Source: Dugong dugon (taxonomy: Eukaryota > Chordata > Mammalia > Sirenia > Dugongidae). From it: a DNA stretch of 64,000 nt. The notes under the pieces were generated by a model. The model ran no database searches and had not been told where the DNA came from. It saw only the letters and a list, made by a program, of their open reading frames with translations. Of this stretch, positions 13,386-61,896 are shown one piece after another (position 1 is the stretch's first letter; each line of letters begins with the position of its first letter). Position numbers and translations under genes: made by a program. The stretch is taken from assembly GCA_030035585.1 (NCBI GenBank), contig CM057468.1, forward strand, positions 54,990,145 through 55,054,144, written 5' to 3'.

Positions 13386-13899
13386 TCATTTGATTTCTTG
13401 ACTGTTGCTTCCATGGGCATTGATTGTGGGTCCAAGTAAAACGAAATACTTGACAACTTCAATCTTTTCTCCATTTATCATGATGCTGCTTATTGGTCCA
13501 GTTATCAAGATTTTTTTTTTCTTTATGTTGAGGTGAAATCCATATTGAAGGCTGGAGTCTCTGATTGTCATCAGTAAGTGCTTCAAGTCCTCTTCACTTT
13601 CACCAAGCAAAGTTCTGTCATTTGCATATCGCAGGTTGTTAATTAGTCTCCCTATAATTCTGACGCCACATTCTTCTTCATATAGTCCAGCTTCTCAGAC
13701 TATTTGCTCAGCATACAGATAAATACGGTGAAAGGATACAACTCTGATGCACACCTCTCCTAAATTTAAACCACACAGTATCCCTTTGTTTTGTTTGAAC
13801 GACTGCCCCTTGGTCTATGTATGGGTGCCACATGAGCACAACTAAGTGTTCTGGAATTCCAATTATTTGCAATATTATCCATAATTTGTTATGATCCAC
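13386..13899 (-). pseudogene. RTE reverse transcriptase remnant
   Basis: Frames 13899-13708 and 13610-13386 hold RT motifs 'RRGVHQSCILSPYL' and, near the end, IEVVKYFVLLGPTINAHGS, the conserved post-catalytic region of RTE RT. The catalytic YADD motif reads YAND. Broken in several places. Confidence 0.75.
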
Positions 13900-14944
13900 A
13901 CACTAGAATGCCTTTGCATAGTCAATAAAACACAGGTAAACATTATTCTGTTATTCTCTGCTTTCAGCAAAGATCCACCTGACATCAGCAATGATATCCC
14001 TCTTTGCACATCTACTTCTGAATCCAGTTTGAATTTCTGGTAGTTCCCTGTAGATGTACTGCTGCAATCGTTTTTAAATTATCTTCAATAAAATTTTACT
14101 TCTGTGTGATATTAATGACACTGTTCGATAATTTCTGCATTTTGTTGGATCACTTTTCTTTGGAATGGGCACAAATATGGATCTCTTCCAGTCCACTGGC
14201 CAGGTAGCTGTCTTCCAAATTTCTTAGCATAGATCAATGAACACTTCCAGCACTGCATCCATTTACTGGAACATCTCAGTTGGTAGTCCATTAATTCCTG
14301 GAGCCTTGTTTTTTCCAGTGCCTTCAATGCAGCCTGAACTTCTTCCTTCAATACCATCAACTCTTGATCATATGCTACCTCCTGAAATGGCTGAATGTCG
14401 ACCAATTTGTTTGGGTACAGTGACTCTCTGTATTCCTTCCATCTTCTTTTGATGCTTCCTGCCTTCTGTAATATTTCCCCCCCAGAATCCTTCAACATTG
14501 CAACTTGAGGCTTGAATTTTTTCTTCAGTTCTTTCAGTTTGAGAAATGTTGAGTGTGTTCTTCCTTTTTGGTTTTCTATCTCTAGGTCTTTGAACATTTC
14601 ATTATAATACTCTGTCTTCTCGAGCTGCCCTTTCGAATTTTCTGTTCAGCTCTTTTACATTTCTTCCATTTGTTTTAGCTACTTGACGTTCAACAGCAAG
14701 TTTCAGAGTCTCTACTGACATCCATTTTGGCCTTTTCTGTCTTTCCTGTCTTTTTAATGAGCTTTTGCTTTCTTCATGTATGATGTTGTTGATGTCATCC
14801 CACAGCTCATCCGGTCTTTAGTCATTAGTGTTCAGGACATCAAATCTATTCTTGAGATGGTCTCTAAATTCAGGTAAGATATACTCTAGGTCGTACTTTG
14901 GCTCCCGTGGACTTGTTTTCATTTTCTTCGGCTTCAACTTGAAC

Positions 14945-34309: not shown

Positions 34310-35272
34310 AAGAGAGACCATTTTTTTCCCATACGAAAATTTATATGTACATTGTTATGTGACTCTAATTGCTCTCCCCATACTGTGACAACACACTCCT
34401 CCTTTCCACCCCTGATTCCCCATGTTCATTCAACCAGCTCCTAACCCTCTCTGCCTTTCCATCTCACCTCTGGACAGAAGCTGCTCGTTTAGCCTCTTGT
34501 ATCTACTTGAGCAAGAGGCACGTTCCTCACGAGTATCACTTTATGTCCCACGGTCCAGTCCAATCCCTGTCTGAAGAGTTGGCCTCGGAAATTGTTTTAG
34601 TTCTGGGCTGATAGAGAATCCAAGGGTGATGCTTTCCGGGGTTCCTCCAGTCTCGATCAGACCATTAAGCCTGGTCTTCTTACTAGAATTTAAGTTCTGC
34701 ACCCCATCTTTCTCCTGCTCCATCCGGGACTCCCTGTTGTGCTCCGTGTCAGGGCGGTCATTGGTGGTACCCAGGCACCATCTAGTTCTTCTGATCTCAG
34801 ACTGAGAAGTCTCTGGTTTACGTGGCCCTTTCTGTCTGTTGGGCTAATACTTTCCTTGTGTCTTTGGTGTTCTTCATTCTCCTTTACTCTAGGTGGTTGG
34901 GACCAATTGATGCATCTTAGATGGCCGCTTGCAAGCTTTTAAGAAAGACCCCAGACGCTACTCACCAAAGTAGGATGCACAATATATTCTTAATAAGCTT
35001 TGTTATGCCAATTGATTTAGATGTCCCCTGAAAGCATAGTCCCCAGACCCCTACCGCTGCTACTTTGTGCCTCAAAGTGTTCGATTGTATTCAGGAAACT
35101 TCTTAGCTTTGGTTTAGTCCAGTTATGCTGACTTCCCCTGTAGCCTGTGCTGTCCTTCCCTTCACCTAAGATAATTCTTATCTACTATCTAGTTAGTAAA
35201 TAACCCTCCCTCTTCCACCCTCCTAACCATCAAAGAATGTTTTCTTCTGTGTTTAAACCTTTTCTTGAGTTC

Positions 35273-38200
35273 TTATAATAGTGGTCTTATACAATATTTG
35301 TCTTGCTGTGAATGACTAAGTTCATTCAGCATAATAAGTTCCAGCTTCCTCCATGTTATAAGATGTTTCACAGCTTCGTCATTGTTCTTTATCATTGCAT
35401 AATACTCCACTGTGTGTACGTACCATAGTTTGTTTATCCATTCATCTGTTGATGGGCATCTAGGTTGTTTCCATCTTTTTGCTATTGTGAACAGCACTGC
35501 AATGAACATGAGTGTGCATATATCTATTCGTGTGACGGCTCTTATTTCTCTAGGATATATTCCAAGGAGCTGGATAGCTGGATCGTATGATACTTCTATT
35601 GCTAGCTTTTTGAGGAAGTGCCAAATCGATTTCAAAAGTGGTTGTACCATTTTACATTCCCAGCAGTAGTGTGTAAGTGTTCCAGTCTCTCCACAACCTC
35701 TCCACCATTTATTATTTTGTGTTTTTTGGATTAATGCTAGCCTTGTTGGGGTGAGATGATATCTCATTGTAGTTTTGATCTGCATTTCTCTAATGGCTAA
35801 TGATCATGACCATTTCTTCATGTATCTGTTAGCCACCTGAATATCTTCTTCATCAAAGTGCCTGTTCATATCCTTTGCCCATTTTTTAATTGGGTTATTT
35901 GTTTTTTTGTTGTTGAGGTTTTGCAGTATCCTGTAGATTTTAGAGATTAGACACTGAATGGATCTGTCATAGCCAAAATTTTTTTTCCAGTCTGTAGGTT
36001 GTCTTTTTACTCTTTTAGTGAAGTCTTTTGATGAGCATAAGTGTTTGAGTTTTTAGGAGCTCCCAGTTATCCAGTCTTTCTTCTGGTGCTTGTGCATTGT
36101 TACTTATGGTTCGTACTGTGTTCATGCCATGTATTAGGGCTCCTAGCATTGTCCCTGTTGTTTATTCCATGATCTTTATAGTTTTCAATTTTATATTTAA
36201 GTCTTTGATCCATTTTGAGTTAGTTTTTGTGCATGGTGTGAGCTATGGGTCTTATTTCAGTTTTTTGCAGATGGATATCCAGTTATGCCAGCACCATTTG
36301 TTAAAGAGACTGTCTTTTCCCCAAATATCAGCTGCTCATAGGTAGATGAATTTACATCTGGATTCTCAATTCTGTTGTTCCATTGGTCTATGTATCTGTT
36401 GTTGTACCAGTACAACAGTTCTGACTACCGTGGCGGCATAATAGGTTCTAAAATCAGGTAGTGTGAGGCCTCCCACTTTGTTCTTCTTCTTGAGTAATGC
36501 TTTACTTATTCGAGGCATCTTCCCTTTCCATATGAAGTTGGTGATTTGTTTCTCCATCTCATTAAAAAATGCTGGTGGGTTTTGGATCAGGATTGCATTG
36601 TATCTGTAGATCGCTTTGGGTAGAGTTGACATTTTCACAATGTTGAGTCTGCCTATCCATGAGCAAGGTATGTTTTTCCACTTACACAGGTCTCTTTTGG
36701 TTTCTTGCAGGAGTGTCTTGTAGTTTTCATTGTACAGATCTTTTATGTCTCTGGTTAGATTTAAGTATTTTATCTTCTTGGGGGCTATTGTAAATGCTAT
36801 TGATTTGGTGATTTCCTCTTCAAGGTTCTCTTTGTTGGTGTAAAGGAATACAACTGATTTTTGTATGTTTATCTTGTATCCTGAAACTTTGCTGAAATCT
36901 TCTATTAGTTCCAGTAGTTTTTTTGTGGATTCTTTGGGGTTTTCTGTGTATAAGATCATATCATCTGCAAATAGAGATACTTTGACTTCTTCCCTACCAA
37001 TTTGGAAGCCCTTTATTTCTTTTTCTAGCCTAATTGCTCTGGCTCGGATCTCCAGCACAATGTTGAATAAGAGTGGTGGTAAAGGGCATCCTTGTCTGGT
37101 TCCCATTCTCAAGTGGAATGCTTTCAAAGTCTCTCCATTTAGGATGATGTTGGCTGTTGGCTTTGTATAAATGCCCTTAATTATATTGAGGAATATTCCT
37201 TCTATTCCTAATTTGTTGAGAGTTTTTACTGTGAATGGGTGTTAGACTTTGTCAAATGCCTTTTCTGCATCAATTGATAAGATCATGTGGTTCTTGTTTT
37301 TTTTTTTTTTTTATTAATGTGATGGATTACATTGATTGTTTTTCTAATGTTGAACCATCCCTGCATACCTGGTATAAATCCCACTTGATCATGGTGAATT
37401 TTTTTTTTTTTTTTTGATATGTTGCTAAATTCTACTGGCTAGAATTTTGTTGAGGATTTTTGCATCAATGTTCATGAGGGATATTGGTCTGTAATGTTCT
37501 TTTTTTGTGGTGTCTTTACCTTGTTTAGGTATCAGGGTTATGCTGGCTTCATAGAATGAGTTTGGGAGTATTCCATCCTTTTCTATGCTCTGAAATACCT
37601 TTAGTAGTAGTGGTGTTAACTCTTCTCTGAAAGTTTGGTAGAATTCTCCAGTGAAGCCATCCAAGCCAGAGCTTTTTCGTCGGGAGTTTTTAAATTACTT
37701 TTTCAATCTCTTCTTTTGTTATGGGTTTATTTAGTTGTTCTACCTCCGTTTTTGTGTTAGTTTAGGTAGGTAGTGAGTTTCTAGAAATTTGTCCATTTCC
37801 TCTTGGTTTTCAGATTTGTCAGAGTACAATTTTTCATAGTTTTCTGTTATGATTCTTTTAATTTCAGTTGGGTCTGTTGTGATATCACCCATCTCATTTC
37901 TTATACGGGTTATCTGCTTCCTCTCCTGTTTTTCTTTTGTCGGTTTGGCCAGTGGTTTATCAATTTTGTTGATCTTTTCAAAGAACCAGCTTTTGGTCTT
38001 GTTAACTCTTTCAATTGTTTTTCTATTCTCTATTTCATTGAATTCTGCTCTAATTCTTATTATTTCCTTTCTTCTAGTGCCCAAGGGCTTCTTTTGCTGC
38101 TCTCTTTCTACTTGTTCCAGTTGTAGGGTTAATGTTTTGATTATGGCCCTTTCTTCTTTTTGGATGTGTGCATTTACTGCTATAAACTGACCTCTGAGCA

Positions 38201-39100
38201 CTGCTTTTGCTGTGTCCCAAAGGTTCTTGTAGGATGTATTTTTATTCTTGTTTGATTCTATGAATTTCTTTATTCCATCCTTTATTTCTTCTATAACCCA
38301 GTAGTTTTTGAGCAAGGTGTTGTTCAGTTTCCATGTGTTTGATTTTTTTTTCCTTGCTTTTTGTGTTGTTGATTTCCACTTTATGGCTTTATGGTCAGAA
38401 AAGTTGCTTTGTAATATTTCGATGCTTTGGATTTTGTTAAGGCTTCCTTTATGGCCTAATATGTGGTCTATTCCAGAGAAAGTATACTTGGCTGCTGTTG
38501 AGTGGAGTGTTTGGTATATGTTTATGAGATCAAGTTGGTTGATTGCAGCATTTAGCTCTTCTGTGTCTTTGTTGAGCTTCTTTCTGGATGTTCTGTCCTT
38601 CACCGAAAGTGGTGTGTTTAAGTTTCCTACTACTACCGTGGAGCTGTCTATCTGTCTTTTCAGTGCCGTTAGAGTTTGTTTTATGTATTTTGGAGCCCTG
38701 TCGTTGGATGTGTAAATATTTATTATAGTTATGTCCTCCTGGTGTATTGACCCTTTAATCATTATATAGTGTCCTTACTTATCCTTTGTGGTTGATTTTA
38801 CTTTAAAGTCTGTTTTGTCAGAGATTGATATTGCCACTCCTGCTCTTTTTTGAGTGCTGTTTGCTTGATATATTTTTTTCCATCCTTTAAGTTTTAGTTT
38901 GTTTGTGTCTTTAAGTCTAAGGTGTGTCTCTTGTAGGCAGCATATAGATGGATCATGCTTTTTATCCAATTTGCCACTTTCTGTTTCTTTATTGGTGCAT
39001 TTACTCCATTTACATTCAGCATAATTATTGATAGGTATGAATTTAGTGCCGTCCTTTTGACGTCTTTTTTTGTGTGTTGTTCACAGTTTCTTTGTTCCAC
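35273..39100 (-). pseudogene. L1 ORF2 (endonuclease/reverse transcriptase), broken
   Basis: Recognisable blocks from the N-terminus: NVNGVNAPIKKQKV (39100-38894), CCLQETHLRLKD with the catalytic Glu (38969-38775), VVGNLNTPLS with the catalytic Asp replaced, and SNFSDHKAI (38762-37740). The thumb and RT region follows with [16 protein letters not shown] and the catalytic FADDMILY (37127-36366). The C-terminal Cys/His region is [19 protein letters not shown] and [13 protein letters not shown] (35785-35273). The order is complete, but at least five frames are needed, so it is inactive. Confidence 0.88.
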
Positions 39101-39692
39101 TTAATTTTCTGTGCTGAATTGTTTCTCTTTATGTATTTTTTCATTGTTGTTGATTTTGTGTTTGCTGAGTCACTATCTTTTTCCAGTTTTTTATTTTAAC
39201 TTGTAGGAATGTTAATTTCCTTTGTGGTTACCTTAGTATTTCCCCCTATTTTTCTAAGTTTATAGCAGCCTTTTATTTCTTTATATCATCTTGACTTCCT
39301 CTCCATATGAAAAATCTATGTCTACATTTAAGTCCCTCTTTTTTGTTTTAATGTTGTCATCTTTTACATATTGGCATCTGTTTCCCTATCTTCAGTGTTT
39401 TAGCTCTGATTTACTTTTGTGACTTCCCTATCTGGGTTGATATCTGGTTGCTCTGTCCTGTGTTCTAGTCTTGGTTTGTTACCTGATGTTACTGATATTC
39501 TAACCAGAGGACTCCCTTTAGTATGTCTTGTAATTTTAGTTTGGTTTTTGCAAATTCCCTAAACTTTGGTTTATCTGGAAATGCCCTAATTTTGCCATCA
39601 TATTTGAGAGACCGTTTTGCTGGATATATAATTCTTGACTGGCAGTTTTTTTCCTTCAAGGCTTTATATATGTCATCCCATTGCCTTCTTGC

Positions 39693-40437
39693 CTACAGGG
39701 TTTCTGCTGAGTAGTCAGAGCTTATTCTTACTGACTCTCCTTTGTAGAAGACTTTTTGTTTATCCCTAGCTGCTTTTAAAATTCTCTCTTTATCTTTGGT
39801 CTTGGCAAGTTTGATTATGATGTGTCTTGGTGACTTTCTTTTGGGAGCTACCTTATGTGGGGTTTGATGAGCATCTTGGGTAGATATCTTGTCATCTTCC
39901 ACAGTATCAAGGAATTTTTCTGCCAATAAATCTTCAACAATTCTCTCTGTATTTTCTGTCCCCCCTGCCCCATTCTGGTACTCCAGTCACTCATAGGTTA
40001 TTCCTCTTGATAGAGTCCCATGTAATTCTTAGGGTATCTTCATTTTTTTAAATCCTTTTATCTGATTTTTCTTCAAATAAGTTGGAGTCAAGTGCTTTGT
40101 CTTCAATCTCACTAATTCTGACTTCCATTGCCTCAGTTCTGCTCCTATGACTTTCTATGGAGTTGTCTAATTCTGAAATTTTATTGTTAATCTTCTCGAT
40201 TTCTGACTGCTGTTTCTCTATGGATTCTAGCAGCCTGTTAAATTTGTCATTATGCTCTTCTCTAATCTTTTTAATTTCCTCTATTTCATGTTCTGCATTT
40301 TGCTTAATTTTCTTCCTAATTTCATGAAAAGTTCTGTATATTAATCTTTTGTATTCTGCCTCCAGTAATTCCAAGAAATTTTCCTCCTCTGGAAAATTTC
40401 TAGATTCTTTATTTTGGGAGCTTGCTGAAGCCATCAT
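39693..40437 (-). pseudogene. L1 ORF1 (RNA-binding protein), broken
   Basis: Begins with tandem ATGs at 40437 and 40434 (MMASASSQNK). A long coiled coil follows (heptads with EEIKKIREEHND, QQSEIEKINNKISELD). After a frame change near 39960 the RNA-binding and C-terminal domain continues: RKSPRHIIIKLAKTKDKERILKAA. This is the nucleic-acid chaperone that coats L1 RNA as a trimer. The frame break makes it non-coding now. Confidence 0.85.
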
Positions 40438-41468: not shown

Positions 41469-42418
41469 TTTTTTGTTTTTTGATTTTTTTTTTTAATTGT
41501 ACTTCAGGTGAAGGCTTACAGAACAAATAGTTTCTCATGAAACAGAAGTACAAATGTTGTTTTATGACATTGGTTAACAACCCCACAACGTATCAACCCT
41601 CTAACTTCTCAACCTTTTTTTTTTTTTGGTGAAAATACGCATAGCCAAAGATACACCATTTCAAAAATTTCTACATGCACAGTTCAGTGACATTGACTAT
41701 GCTCTTCGAATTGTTCTGTTATTCTCACTTAAGATGAAGGCTTACAGAACAAAATAGTTTCTAATTTAACAGTTACTACAGATGTTGCCCTATGACAATG
41801 GTTAACAATCTCACAACATGTCAACAATATCCTTACTCAACCTTGGGTTCCCTATCACCAGCTTCCTTGTCCCCTTCTGCTTTTTGGCCCTTGTCACTGG
41901 ACTCCTGTACCTCGTTAGTCTCATTTGGTTTTACGGGGCTGTCCAATCCCAGGCTGAACAGTGAACCTCAAAGGTAACTTCACCACTGAGCTAAAAGGGT
42001 GTCTGGGGGCCATACTCTCGGGGTTTCTCCAGTCTCCTTTAGGCCAGTAAATCTGGTCTTTTTTTTTTGTGGATTAGAATTATGCTCTACATCCTTCTCC
42101 AGCTCTGTCCAGAACCCTCTGTTGTGATCCTGGTCAGAGCAGTCAGTGGTGGTAGCTGGGCACCATCTAGCTGTACTGGACTCAGTCCGGTGGAGGGCTT
42201 GGTAGCTGTGGACAATTAGTCCTCTGGACTAATCTTTTCCTTGTATCCTGTTCTCTTCATTCTCCCTTGCTGCCGAAGGGATGAGACCAGTGGAGTATCT
42301 TAGATGGCCGCTCACAGGCTTTTAAGACCCCAGACACTACTCACCAAGGTGGAATGTAGAGCATTGTCTTTATAAGTTGTGTCATGCCAATTGAGCTAGA
42401 TGTTCCCCGAGACCATGG
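41469..42418 (-). mobile_element. L1 3' end nested in the 5' UTR of another L1
   Basis: A 5'-truncated L1 3' UTR, with the T-run of its A-tail at low coordinates. It is bounded by a 20-base duplication containing ccctaagggggttg at 41449-41468 and 42419-42438. The body contains 'gtgaaggcttacagaaca' twice (about 41511 and 41735), with a different segment between ('aaatacgcatagccaaaga'). It ends in '3 UTR' sequence like that at 34.75-35.04 kb. It is younger than its host L1. Confidence 0.92.
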
Positions 42419-42429
42419 TCCCTAAGGGG

Positions 42430-56940: not shown

Positions 56941-56960
56941 TCCTTCCTGCTTATTCTTTT

Positions 56961-58300
56961 TTTTAAATTTTTTATTGTACTTTAGATGAAGGTGTACAGA
57001 ACAAATAATTTCTCATTAAACAGTCAGTACACATATTGTTTTATGACATTGGTTAACAACCCCACCACATGTCAACACTCTACCTTCTCTACCTTGGAGG
57101 ACCTTTTTTTTGTTGAAAATATACATAGCCAAAGTTACACCATTTCAAAAGTTTCTACATGTACAATTCAGTGACATCGATTACATTCTTCCAGTTGTGC
57201 TGCTATTCTCACTATCCTTTTCCAAATTATTCTATCATGATTGTCTTCAACTCACTGACCCCTAGGCTTCCCATCAAACCTTTTGAGTTGCTGTTGTCGA
57301 TTTGATCTCACATAGACAATTTTTTTTTTTTTTGTACATTAGATGAAGGTTTGCAGAACAAATAGTTTCTCATTGAACAGTTAGTACGTATATTTCCCTA
57401 TGACAATGGTTAACAACCCCATGACATGTCAACACTGTCCCTTCTCAACCTTGGGTTCCTTATCACCAGCTTTCCTGTCCCTTCCTGCCTGCTAGTCCTT
57501 GTCCCTGGACTGCTGTGCCTCATTAGTCCCATTTTGTTTTATGAGGCTGTCCAAGCCCTGGCTGAGCAGTGAACTTTGGGAGTGACTTCACCACTGAGCT
57601 AAAAGGGTGTCCAGGGGCCATACTCTCGAGATTTCTCTAGTCTATCAGGCCAGTAAATCTGGTCTTTTTTTTGTGAGTTAGAATTTTGCTCTACATCCTT
57701 CTCCAGCTCTGTCCAGGACCCTCGATTGTGATCCCAGTCAGAGCAGTCAGTGGTGGTAGCCAGGCACTATCTAGCTGTACTGGACTCAGTCTGGTGGAGG
57801 CTGTAGTAGCTGTGGTCCATTAGTCCTTTGGCCTAATCTTTTCCTTGTATCCTGTTCTCTTCATTCTCCCTTGCTCCCAAAGGGGTGAGACCAGTGGAGT
57901 ATCTTAGATGGCTGCTCACAAGCTTTTAAGACCCCAGATGCTACTCACCAAGGCAGAATGTAGAGCATTGTCTTTATAAACTGTGTTATGCCAATTGAGC
58001 TAGATGTTTCCTGAGACATGGCCCCCACAGCCCTCCACCCAGCAATTCAGTCCATCAGGGAGTTTGGAAGTGTCTATGGAACTTCCATGACCTTTCCTTG
58101 TACAAGTTGTGCTGGCTTCCCCAGTATTGTGTATTGTCTTACCCTTCACCAAAGTTACCACTTATCTATTATCTATCTAGTTATCCCACTCCCACCCCTC
58201 CCATCCCTCATAACCAACAAAGATTGTTTCTTTTTGTGTGTAAACTTTTACATGAGTTTTTACAGTAGAGGTCTCATACAATATTTGTCCTTTCATGATT
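56961..58300 (-). repeat. Compound L1 3' UTR
   Basis: Two copies of the terminal motif (gatgaaggtgtacagaacaa at about 56984; gatgaaggtttgcagaacaa at about 57343) flank a segment beginning 'tgaaaatatacatagccaaa'. The same arrangement occurs in the nested L1 at 41469, so it was inherited by a subfamily and was not made locally. Confidence 0.75.
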
Positions 58301-58460
58301 GACTTATTTTACTCAGCATAATGCCCTCCAGTTTCATCCATGTTATGAGATGCTTCACAGATGCATCATTATTTTTTATCTTTGTATAATACTCCATTGT
58401 GCGTATGTACCATAGTTTGTTTATCCATTCATCTGTTGATGGGCATCTAGGTTGTTTCCA

Positions 58461-58595
58461 TCAATTTGCTATTGTGAACAGTGCTGCAATGAATATGGGT
58501 GGGTATGTGTCTATCCGTGTGATGGCTTTTATTTCTCTAGGATATATTCCTAGGAGTGGGATTGCATTTTGTGGTGCTTTTTTTTTTGTGGTGCT
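58461..58595 (-). pseudogene. ORF2 C-terminal remnant and deletion junction
   Basis: A continuous minus-strand frame (58829-58461) runs from inter-ORF sequence straight into the ORF2 C-terminus ([20 protein letters not shown]). The junction lies between two direct copies of tttgtggtgct (58568-58578 and 58585-58595). Confidence 0.8.
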
Positions 58596-59200
58596 GATGT
58601 TTTCTTTGTTCCTCTTACTCTCCTGTGCTGAGTTCCTTTTGTTTGTGGAGTTTTTTTCCATTTCTTTTGTTTTTGTAGGTTTTGTTTTTATTGAGACTTT
58701 ATGTTTTTCTTCTTTATTTTGATGAGTAGGTTTGTTAACTTTCTTTGTGGTGACCTTGAAATTTACCCTTATCTTCCTAGATTTGAACCAGTCTGTTATT
58801 ACTTGGTATTGCCTTGCCTTCCTCTCCATTAGAAGGTTCTATACATACACCATTTATTCCCTCTTTTATTGTTCTGATGCTGATATAATTTACAGATTAA
58901 CCTCTGTGGTTCCCTGTTGTAATCCCTTTGGTTTTGCATAGTCCTTAAGGGTTCATTTCCTAGGTTGGTATCTGGCTAGTACAATCCTGTGTCCTAGATT
59001 TGGCCTGTGGTCTGATGTTTGTTGTCAGATCAAAGGACTCTCTTTAATAAGTCTTGTAAGTTTGGTTTGTTTTTACACAGTCCTTTAATTTCTGTTTATC
59101 TGGAAATGACCTAATTCATCATATTTGAATGAGAGTTTTGCAGGATATATTATTCTTGGCTGGCAATTTTTTCCTTCAAGGTTTTGTATATGTCATCCCA

Positions 59201-59964
59201 TTACCTTCTTGCCAAATAATCTGAGCTTAGTCTTATTGTTTCCCCTCTGTATGTGACTTTTTGTTTTTCTTGAGCTGCTGTCAGGATTCTTTGTTTGTCT
59301 TTGGTTTTAGTGAGTGTGATTCTGGTATGCCTTGGTGATTTTCTTTTGAGGTCTATCCCATATGGGGTTCGTTGAGCTTCTTGGATGGTCAGCTTTTCAT
59401 CTTTCATGATATTGGGGAAGTTTTCTGTCAGCAGTTCTTCAATGATCCTCTCTGTGTTTTCTGTTTACTTCCCCTGTTCTGGAACTCCGATCACTTGAAG
59501 ATTTTTGCTTTTGATTGTATCCCACTTAATTCTCAGGGTTTCTTCATTTTTCATCATTCTTCTTTCTGATTTTTCCTCAAACAGAGCTGTAGCCAAGTGT
59601 TTGTCTTCGATTTCGCTGATCCTATCTTCCATTGTTTCAGACCTGCTCCTCAGCCCTTCTATGACACTGTGCATTTCTGAAATCTTGTTGTTTATCTTTT
59701 GGATTTCTGATTGTTGTTTTTGTATGATTTCTGGTTGTGAATTTATTTTAGCCATTTTGTTCCTGTATTTTCTTGAATTCTTCCATTTTTTGTCTGTATT
59801 TTCCATGAATATGTCTATTTTTTCCTCATTTTTGTCTACTTTTTGCTTCAACTCTTGGATAATTCTGAATATTAGAGTTTGAATTCCCTATTAGTTAGGT
59901 CTAGTGCCTTTTCTTCTAGTGGAAGATCATCTGGTGTTTTAATTTGGACACCTACTGGAACCAT
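59201..59964 (-). pseudogene. L1 ORF1 of the half-L1, broken
   Basis: ATG at 59964 begins MVPVGVQIKTPDDLPLEEKA. A coiled coil follows (QQSEIQKINNKISEM, SRSETMEDRISEIED). The RNA-binding region includes NEETLRIKWDTIKS, and the C-terminal domain is RKSPRHTRITLTKTKDKQRILTAAQ. A frame change lies near 59880, and an in-frame TAA at 59465-59467 separates the last two parts, which are otherwise in one frame. It aligns by eye along its whole length with ORF1 of the other L1, so this is an ORF1 protein gene that has since decayed. Confidence 0.85.
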
Positions 59965-61471
59965 CCTGTCCTGTTTTTGTAAATGTTTTGTTATTGTCTG
60001 CTGTCTTTAGGGCATTCAGTGGTTATTCTCCTCATTTATTGATTGTAGATTTGTTTGTTTCATCCTGCTTTTTTGTTTTATTTGGTTATGTCTGAGCAGG
60101 CGGTCTGTGCATTCTTTGTTGTTTGCTCATATGTGGGCACGATACTTCACCTCCTTCTCCAATGTGCAGGGTCAGTCACTCAGGTATGGTACAGCAGGGC
60201 AGATCCAGCTGAAGGGGAGTTGCTGGGATGGGTTTTTTGTGGCACATACCAGGGTTGACAGTGCAAACTGGGAATCAGTGCAAGGCAGGTTCCAGTAGGC
60301 CATGCCTGTGCTGCTTGGGAGTGTGATGTTCAGTGCATGGTGCAGGTAGGCAGGAAGGAGGAGGTATATTGTGATGTGTAGAGCTAAGATGGGTATGGGA
60401 AAGATGAGAGAGAGAGGAACAGGAGCCAAAAGCATACACACAAAAAAGAGTGCTAAGGGAGCTTGCTATTGGAGTGGAGAGATGAGAGACTGAGAATGAG
60501 GAAAAACAAAAACGAAAAAAGAGTAATAGAAAAAAATTAATAAATTGAGAAACTGGAAATAAAGAAAGACAAAAAGGAAATAAGAGAGAAGAAAACAAAA
60601 CAAACAAACAAACAAAAAAAACCCCCAAAAAAACAAGAAAAAAGAAATGCCCCCAGGGATGTCACTGTGCGTCTGCGTGGAGTAAGGGAGTAACTTCCAA
60701 GCCGTGCAGTACTGCCTGGCTAGAAGGGGCTCCCTGCCGAGAAAAAAAAAAAGAAAACAAAGAAATCAAAATAGCAAAAATCAAAGAAAACTAACAAAAA
60801 AGCCCTGGGGGTCCCATCAGCATGGTGGCACAGGCTGGGAAGCAGTTTCACAGTTGAGTGGTGTTTCGCAGCCTTTCAGGAAGAAGAAAAGATAGCGCAC
60901 AGAGCCAGGTATTTGAGAGAAAGGAGGGGTAGGTGGTGAGAGGTAAGGAAGAAATCTAAAGAAGCAGAAAAAAGCAACACCGGCAACCAACAAAAGGCAC
61001 TCAGGGAGCCAGCCAGTGCGGGCGGGTGGAATCCAAGTGACACCAGGGTGAAACTGGTGCTTCCCAGCCAAAAGATTGTGCCTGCAGGAAGCAGAGGAGA
61101 CTAAGTGGGGGTAAAGAAGGTTGGGCAGTGGGAAAGCCTATATCGCTGGTTACTTGTTGTTCTATCTCCTGCTGGAAGCTCCGTGAAGCTGCTTTCTCAT
61201 ACCTCTGGTTTGCTGATCTCTGATGAGAGTCCAAGATGGCGGATCCGTGCTGCGGTAGCTGATAGGAGACCTCTGCATGTATCTCTCCTCGCTCTCTGTT
61301 CTTGGTCAGTTTCTTATTCCATTTGGCACTTGGCAGAGTTCTTTATCTCTTCGTTTGATGCTTAGGGTTTCAGGATTGACATATAACTCTGTTTGACTTC
61401 GTTTTTCTGATCTTTGCTGTGGAGGGACGGCGTGGTGCTTCTGGCTATAGCGCCATGTTGCCCGGAAGTCC
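59965..61471 (-). promoter_or_regulatory. L1 5' UTR with two YY1-type sites
   Basis: Rich in A/G blocks on the plus strand (60480-60640, 60740-60800) and GC-rich near the 5' end. A YY1-like core, cgccatgttg, lies at 61451-61460, right at the 5' end. A stronger aagatggcgg in the opposite direction lies at 61233-61242. Its sequence differs from the 5' UTR of the L1 at 42.4-42.8 kb, so the two belong to different promoter lineages. Confidence 0.65.
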
Positions 61472-61734
61472 CCTTCCTGCTTATTCTTTTCATCAATGTG
61501 CACTAGTGTACTAGAAGAAACAATTTTAAGCCTCACTGTTAGATATTGTTTTATAATAATTTTATTTAAAATTTTCCCATTAATGATTAATTCTGTTAGC
61601 ATTTAAATTCATAATGTATATTTTTGGGGCACTTTTGGCAAGATAAATTAAATTTGAGTATTTGCTTTCAGTTGATTAGGGTTTTTGTGATGAAGTTGTC
61701 TCTAGTTCAGTTTTTGTTCACTTAGGGCACACTC

Positions 61735-61896
61735 ATTAGCTGGTGGCACAATAGTAAAGAGATGGCTGCTAACCAAGAGATTGGCAATTTGAATCCACCA
61801 GCGGGTCCTTGTAAACACTCTAGTGCAGTTCTACTCTGTCCTGTAGGGTCACTATGAGTTGGAATGGACTTGATGACAACAAGTTTGGTTTCTGTT
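61735..61896 (+). repeat. AfroSINE
   Basis: Plus-strand short form: 'tagctggtggcacaatagta', 'ttgaatccaccagcgggtcc', 'gagttggaatggacttgatg'. Confidence 0.88.

Follow-up and report, generated by a model that had tools for sequence, protein, structure and literature searches.

A half-L1 element at a Dugong dugon locus and the large HAL1-type family to which it very probably belongs

Results

A half-L1 element with both ends present

The stretch of DNA analysed here, which we call the window, comprises 64,000 nucleotides (nt) of contig CM057468.1 from Dugong dugon (contig C10 in our numbering of the 3.16-Gb genome). Between positions 56961 and 61471, on the minus strand, it carries a half-L1 (HAL1-type) element of 4,511 bp with both ends present: the 5' end is position 61471 and the 3' poly(A) end is position 56961. 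Twenty copies fetched from the same genome align to it piecewise, with ~71-90% identity and a common 5' end. The element is bracketed by an exact 19-mer, CCTTCCTGCTTATTCTTTT, found at 56942..56960 next to the poly(A) end and at 61472..61490 next to the 5' end (neither copy being assigned to a strand). Within the window it has no other exact match, and the perfect 19-bp target-site duplication of the original prediction is thereby confirmed.

All parts of the element lie on the minus strand. The 5' untranslated region (UTR) of ~1.46 kb (60016..61471) shows 71-79% identity to that of one full-length L1 of the same genome (L044/L053, L-numbers being our labels for fetched loci) and is partly homologous to that of another (L039, about 75%). 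Open reading frame 1 (ORF1; 59002..60015) has 347 codons at the family level and is dead in the window copy, which bears 4 stops and 6 frameshift indels. It has heptad-like sequence that would form a coiled coil, followed by the L1 RNA-binding domain, matched by Pfam PF02994 at 59201-59407 (E 1.6e-11). The inter-ORF spacer (58565..59001, ~430 nt), delimited by alignment to 17 L1s that run on into ORF2, has the ORF2 start codon ATG as its last bases. After the deletion junction (58564..58565) comes the ORF2 tail (58262..58564), the last ~100 codons, in a different frame from the retained ATG. The tail is 55% identical to residues 1173-1272 of human ORF2, and no part of ORF2 upstream of residue 1173 matched within the element. 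Alignments to copies and to L1 define a 3' UTR of 1.3 kb (56961..58261). The L1 parts that the original prediction had listed (5' UTR, ORF1, spacer, only the end of ORF2, and 3' UTR) are thus borne out by the alignments, by PF02994 and by the human ORF2 match.

The 3' UTR contains two related 3'-end modules, 57325-57454 and 56968-57097, which are 85% alike and are both found in the L1 copy L055 too. One half-L1 copy, L022, terminates after the first module and has its own duplication, which suggests alternative polyadenylation sites.

A base-exact deletion from just after the ORF2 start codon

By comparison with full L1s of the same genome, the join at 58564|58565 can be placed to the base. 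It reads '..CACTACAAAATG', ending in the ORF2 start codon, and continues with 'CAATCCCACTCC..' of the ORF2 tail, one base (G) being common to both breakpoint ends. In all 17 related L1s the ORF2 ATG is followed by ACAGCAAC, where the half-L1 has CAATCCCACTCC, a sequence that in L1 sits near codon 1173 (human numbering). Measured from positions in the L1 copy L044/L055, the missing segment is ~3.5 kb long, in agreement with the predicted size. The loss had been placed near the start of ORF2; this stands and can now be refined to a breakpoint just after the start codon, at the end of the ~430-nt spacer.

The junction could in principle derive from splicing of L1 RNA, as in SpIRE-like elements, rather than from a DNA deletion or a template jump, and the CAG that precedes the 3' breakpoint does resemble an acceptor. 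Yet the removed segment would start with AC or GA, and no GT or GC donor follows the ORF2 ATG in any of the 17 related L1s. We therefore regard splicing as quite improbable.

The junction is shared by some 2,700 copies

A 30-base junction pattern, allowing up to 3 mismatches, occurred at 2,759 places in the genome (1,379 forward and 1,380 reverse), and the reversed-pattern control at none; the first 100 places were listed and places were not inspected individually. By this count the family comprises ~2,700 or more junction-bearing copies. In parallel, a 181-bp junction query gave 1,763 first-look candidates, and the best 40 of these, when scored, were the window itself and 39 others, with 87-94% identity, on 17 numbered contigs. 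We fetched the 20 most similar of the 39 (9 kb each) and a further 4 (2.8 kb each), chosen by junction similarity and not by length. All 20 reach the 5' end (starting at or before element position 15), L021 having a large internal gap. Both 3'-end modules are clear in 17 of the 21 copies formed by the window and these 20, and absent or ambiguous in L014, L022, L024 and L026.

All 21 aligned copies have the identical join; the differences near it are point changes, a varying A-run length and a single 1-nt gap. Taken alone, the window locus would look the same had one full-length L1 simply suffered a local deletion after insertion. An identical join in 21 copies with different flanks, together with the 2,759 places, means that the deletion preceded insertion; the genome-wide count and the aligned joins refute a local event, to which we give next to no credence. 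The original prediction had offered deletion before insertion, and with it family membership, as a possibility to be checked by a junction search. Run in the window's own genome, this search returned many copies with different flanks, not this locus alone, and junction counting in a single genome can thus decide whether a deletion is local.

Copies of one deleted L1 could also have spread by segmental duplication, with no retrotransposition. The flanks differ among copies, however, the 3' ends are A-rich, and the 39 other scored matches are spread over 17 contigs. In a strict test of the flanks, a duplication score of at least 11 was reached by 8 of the 21 true flank pairs versus 1 of 420 mismatched pairs. 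A wider scan found a duplication above the best of 20 shuffles in 12 of the 21 copies (L009, L010, L012, L016, L017, L018, L020, L022, L024, L025, L027 and the window), each with a target duplication of its own. Two observations pull the other way. The wider scan gave nothing convincing in the other 9 copies, as segmental duplication would have it, and for three of the 12 (L012, L024 and L025) the duplication's second copy is found ~0.7, 0.2 and 0.07 kb past the mapped end, which makes for weaker evidence. Even so, segmental duplication as the source of the copies is very hard to sustain.

The features that define HAL1s are therefore found together here: L1 origin, removal of ORF2, one common junction in many copies, and independent insertions with duplications and poly(A). 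We put the probability that the element belongs to a non-autonomous half-L1 (HAL1-type) family at about 0.93.

The parent lineage persists in the same genome

Using the endonuclease region of human ORF2 as a query, 150 L1 matches were listed in the same genome, many of them with a 1288-amino-acid open frame. Among 20 fetched L1 loci, 17 have 83-85% identity to the half-L1 over a stretch that begins near the ORF1 start and ends at the ORF2 ATG, where the match ceases and the L1s run on into ORF2. The other three form an older group, with ~71-72% identity. Homology at the 3' end was found on L044, the L1 copy compared. Judged from these alignments, the parent is an L1 lineage that persists as intact copies in the same genome. 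L044 (L053-L055) itself seems to be inserted in an older L1 or half-L1, the sequence ahead of it matching element positions 1297-1401 and that behind it 1414-1667.

In an unrooted tree built from ORF1 and spacer, the half-L1s formed a star with low internal support, from within which both the L1 clade (stem 0.07) and the outgroup (stem 0.30) branched off. Five half-L1 copies (L021, L029, L030, L031 and L032) were dropped from the ORF1 alignment for insufficient length, leaving 20 half-L1s for the ORF1 analyses. The shape fits an amplification burst soon after the half-L1/L1 split, without amounting to proof, and the tree does not settle which subfamily is the older.

Subfamilies, mosaics and age

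Two subfamilies, G1 and G2, were defined from the same copies and contain 10 and 8 of the 21, with L021, L023 and L028 in neither. They differ at 39 sites, of which 3 fall among the 1,059 columns of ORF1 versus 36 among the 3,514 columns elsewhere (p=0.02). L028 changes from mostly G1 (to site 1633) to G2 (site 2432 onwards), and L023 is likewise a G1/G2 mosaic. Segments seem to have been exchanged between the subfamilies, and both copies are consistent with template switching during reverse transcription. We also noted a 21-nt presence/absence difference among the half-L1 ORF1s (7 codons, heptad-sized; alignment column 237).

Across 20 copies (all but L021), the mean divergence from the family majority letters was 6.7%, falling to 5.2% once CpG-like sites were removed. 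Mammalian substitution rates are 1-2.2e-9 per site per year; with these, the 5.2% value would place the age of the family very roughly at 24-52 million years.

Constraint on ORF1 in the source lineages

The family-level ORF1 is open through its 347 codons, and none of the 20 copies has an intact ORF1 today. Between the 20 half-L1s and the 17 L1s we counted 33 synonymous and 44 non-synonymous fixed differences, a ratio of non-synonymous to synonymous rates (dN/dS) of 0.33, versus 0.82 for changes seen in a single copy (p=0.0004). This shows ORF1 to have been constrained in the source lineages, a signal that takes in the L1 side and the time before the deletion. Two results count against extending it to the half-L1s themselves. 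Only 5 synonymous and 4 non-synonymous changes could be polarised to the half-L1 side, so dN/dS does not isolate the post-deletion period, and the three G1/G2 differences inside ORF1 are all non-synonymous. For both reasons, the data do not demonstrate selection on ORF1 once the deletion had occurred. A within-family test of selection on ORF1 had no power: single variants compared with variants in at least 4 copies gave p=0.85 (1.0 without CpG-like sites), and compared with variants in at least 2 copies, p=0.11 (0.06 without CpG-like sites).

A 4-nt frameshift shared by part of the family

A 4-nt deletion, CTCTG[TTTG]AGG, is present in 6 of the 20 ORF1-covering copies (L011, L012, L014, L019, L024 and L028) and in all six leads to a stop 11-32 codons downstream, ahead of the RNA-binding domain. 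To avoid selection bias, a second sample was drawn from contig C1, namely its first 20 matches to the junction pattern without mismatch, with 106 bases each at the expected place. The site was not visible in three; among the 17 scorable copies, 5 carry the deletion and 12 lack it. The frameshift is thus carried by 11 of 37 scorable copies, at an equal rate in two non-overlapping samples, and was seen in none of the 17 related L1s and none of 4 outgroup L1s. The original prediction of an 'ORF1-only family' holds as a half-L1 family of ORF1 plus tail. As a description of what its members encode it falls short, given the 11 carriers: some members probably arose already without the capacity for full ORF1 protein (ORF1p).

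Another 4-nt deletion in ORF1, within a CAAA tandem repeat and present in 8 of the 20 half-L1s, was dropped as evidence, since it is also found in 1 of the 17 L1s.

Two readings of the shared frameshift have to be weighed. On the first, ORF1-dead source elements would have amplified, giving a branch of ~30% of the copies that needed neither L1 protein from its own RNA, like a very long short interspersed element (SINE), next to a sister branch that kept ORF1. On the second, the family always relied on its own ORF1p in cis, and the deletion is a recurrent mutation that struck after insertion. Recurrence at tandem repeats is real, as the CAAA deletion attests. The TTTG deletion lies outside any tandem repeat (there is a 2-nt repeat only), and has nevertheless reached 11 of 37 copies. 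When 129 variable sites were tested (L021 left out here and in the comparison of divergences), the two strongest associations with the frameshift, at sites 1848 (~40 nt upstream) and 2030 (~140 nt downstream), had p=0.007 each, uncorrected, and lie on both sides of the deletion, which fits its inheritance together with a local haplotype. Divergence is below the mean in four carriers (L011, L012, L014 and L019) and above it in L024 and L028.

Several observations speak against amplification from ORF1-dead sources. The p=0.007 associations fail correction for 129 tests, and the nearer variable sites 1880, 1917 and 1974 show no strong association. Site 1880, about 10 nt off, occurs with the frameshift in all four combinations, for which a second origin or very local exchange is needed. 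The deleted motif reads TTTC, not TTTG, in 16 of the 17 related L1s, so that these, having no 2-nt repeat there, serve poorly as a control for a mutational hotspot, which is accordingly possible in the half-L1s. L028, a carrier, is the most diverged of the 20 copies. A target duplication is not demonstrated in 9 of the 11 carriers (four of the six full copies have none above shuffles, and the other five are short pieces). Recurrence would also sit well with an ORF1 now broken in 20/20 scored copies in any case, with the lower frequency of G1/G2 differences in ORF1, and with the cis requirement stated for guinea pig HAL1 in PMC3627910, citing Bao & Jurka 2010. On balance we lean towards ORF1-dead source elements, and go no further than that because 16 of the 17 control L1s differ locally and the nearer sites are unassociated; recurrent mutation in a cis-reliant family seems to us the less likely course, though one to be taken seriously.

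Other features of the window

An older near-complete L1 lies on the minus strand at 34603-40228, with 71-75% identity to the half-L1; its ORF2 (35276-38963) is 54-59% identical to human ORF2. A separate L1 3' fragment occupies 41485-42422. The minus strand at 13720-14334 bears a faint resemblance to reverse transcriptase (26% to residues 460-667 of human ORF2) and is perhaps an RTE element. What we take to be an AfroSINE-like repeat at about 61750-61890 was the sole basis for the label 'afrotherian'. tRNA and Rfam scans over the window gave no matches.

Discussion

The following course of events would account for our observations. One L1 of the persisting lineage would have lost the ~3.5 kb that lie between the first codon of ORF2 and the region of codon 1173. 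What was left, comprising the L1 5' UTR, ORF1 and 3' end, could then have been transcribed and copied to new sites by L1 ORF2p acting in trans, with target-primed reverse transcription producing the target duplications and poly(A) tails. Two or more sister subfamilies, G1 and G2 among them, would have amplified and swapped segments, probably by template switching. Some source copies would have encoded ORF1p, and others, probably frameshifted, would have amplified all the same, in which case ORF1p too could be supplied in trans. The trans supply of ORF2p is implied by the ORF2-less copies seen rather than observed directly, which should be counted against this scheme.

If it holds, the family amounts to a large natural experiment on the components that an L1-dependent RNA needs to have: ORF2 was lost, ORF1 was lost too in a branch that is likely heritable, and multiplication continued. 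With ORF1-coding and ORF1-dead members of a single family side by side in the same genome, the strength of the cis preference of ORF1p could be measured, a question open for L1 and its parasites. An ORF1-dead branch, if true, would run counter to the conclusion, published for guinea pig HAL1, that ORF1p is required in cis; there, ORF1 coding was reported to be retained for about 29-44 million years (PMC3627910).

According to PMC5753468, HAL1s descend from L1, have ORF1p as their only product and originated on several separate occasions in mammals. PMC5322556 describes target duplications on either side of them and reliance on the reverse transcriptase of L1, with nearly 2,100 copies in human. 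The same source gives 17,445 lineage-specific full-length L1s for elephant and six for manatee, and screened RepeatMasker output for full-length L1 and HAL1 with elephant among its genomes; the half-L1 family may therefore already be counted there. PMC3183009 names guinea pig (subfamilies HAL1-1 and HAL1-3) and marmoset as hosts of young HAL1s and gives no young family of whatever type for elephant, and HAL1 activity in rat is mentioned in PMC8535693. Our literature search, which covered titles and the starts of abstracts, returned no paper on elephant HAL1; Bao & Jurka 2010, outside that coverage, may list the family.

Compared with intact L1s such as L040, L043 and L048 from the same genome, the half-L1 is 84% identical over ORF1 and spacer, and differs from them in that they hold a full ORF2 with a 1288-amino-acid open frame. 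With the mammalian HAL1s described by Smit 1999 and Bao & Jurka 2010, as rendered in citing papers, it has in common the derivation from L1, the retention of ORF1 and loss of ORF2, poly(A), target duplications and multiple copies. It departs from them, by description and with the junctions of other HAL1s not compared, in having its own junction after the ORF2 ATG, ~100 ORF2 codons, a parent among the L1s of its own genome and a frameshift in 11/37 copies. Like the guinea pig HAL1 families, this one has coding capacity for ORF1p at the family level and several subfamilies; unlike them, with their ORF1 coding kept and a cis requirement inferred, it includes that same ORF1-killing frameshift. The half-L1 family is ordinary in kind, a HAL1, but it is large and its origin is known to the base.

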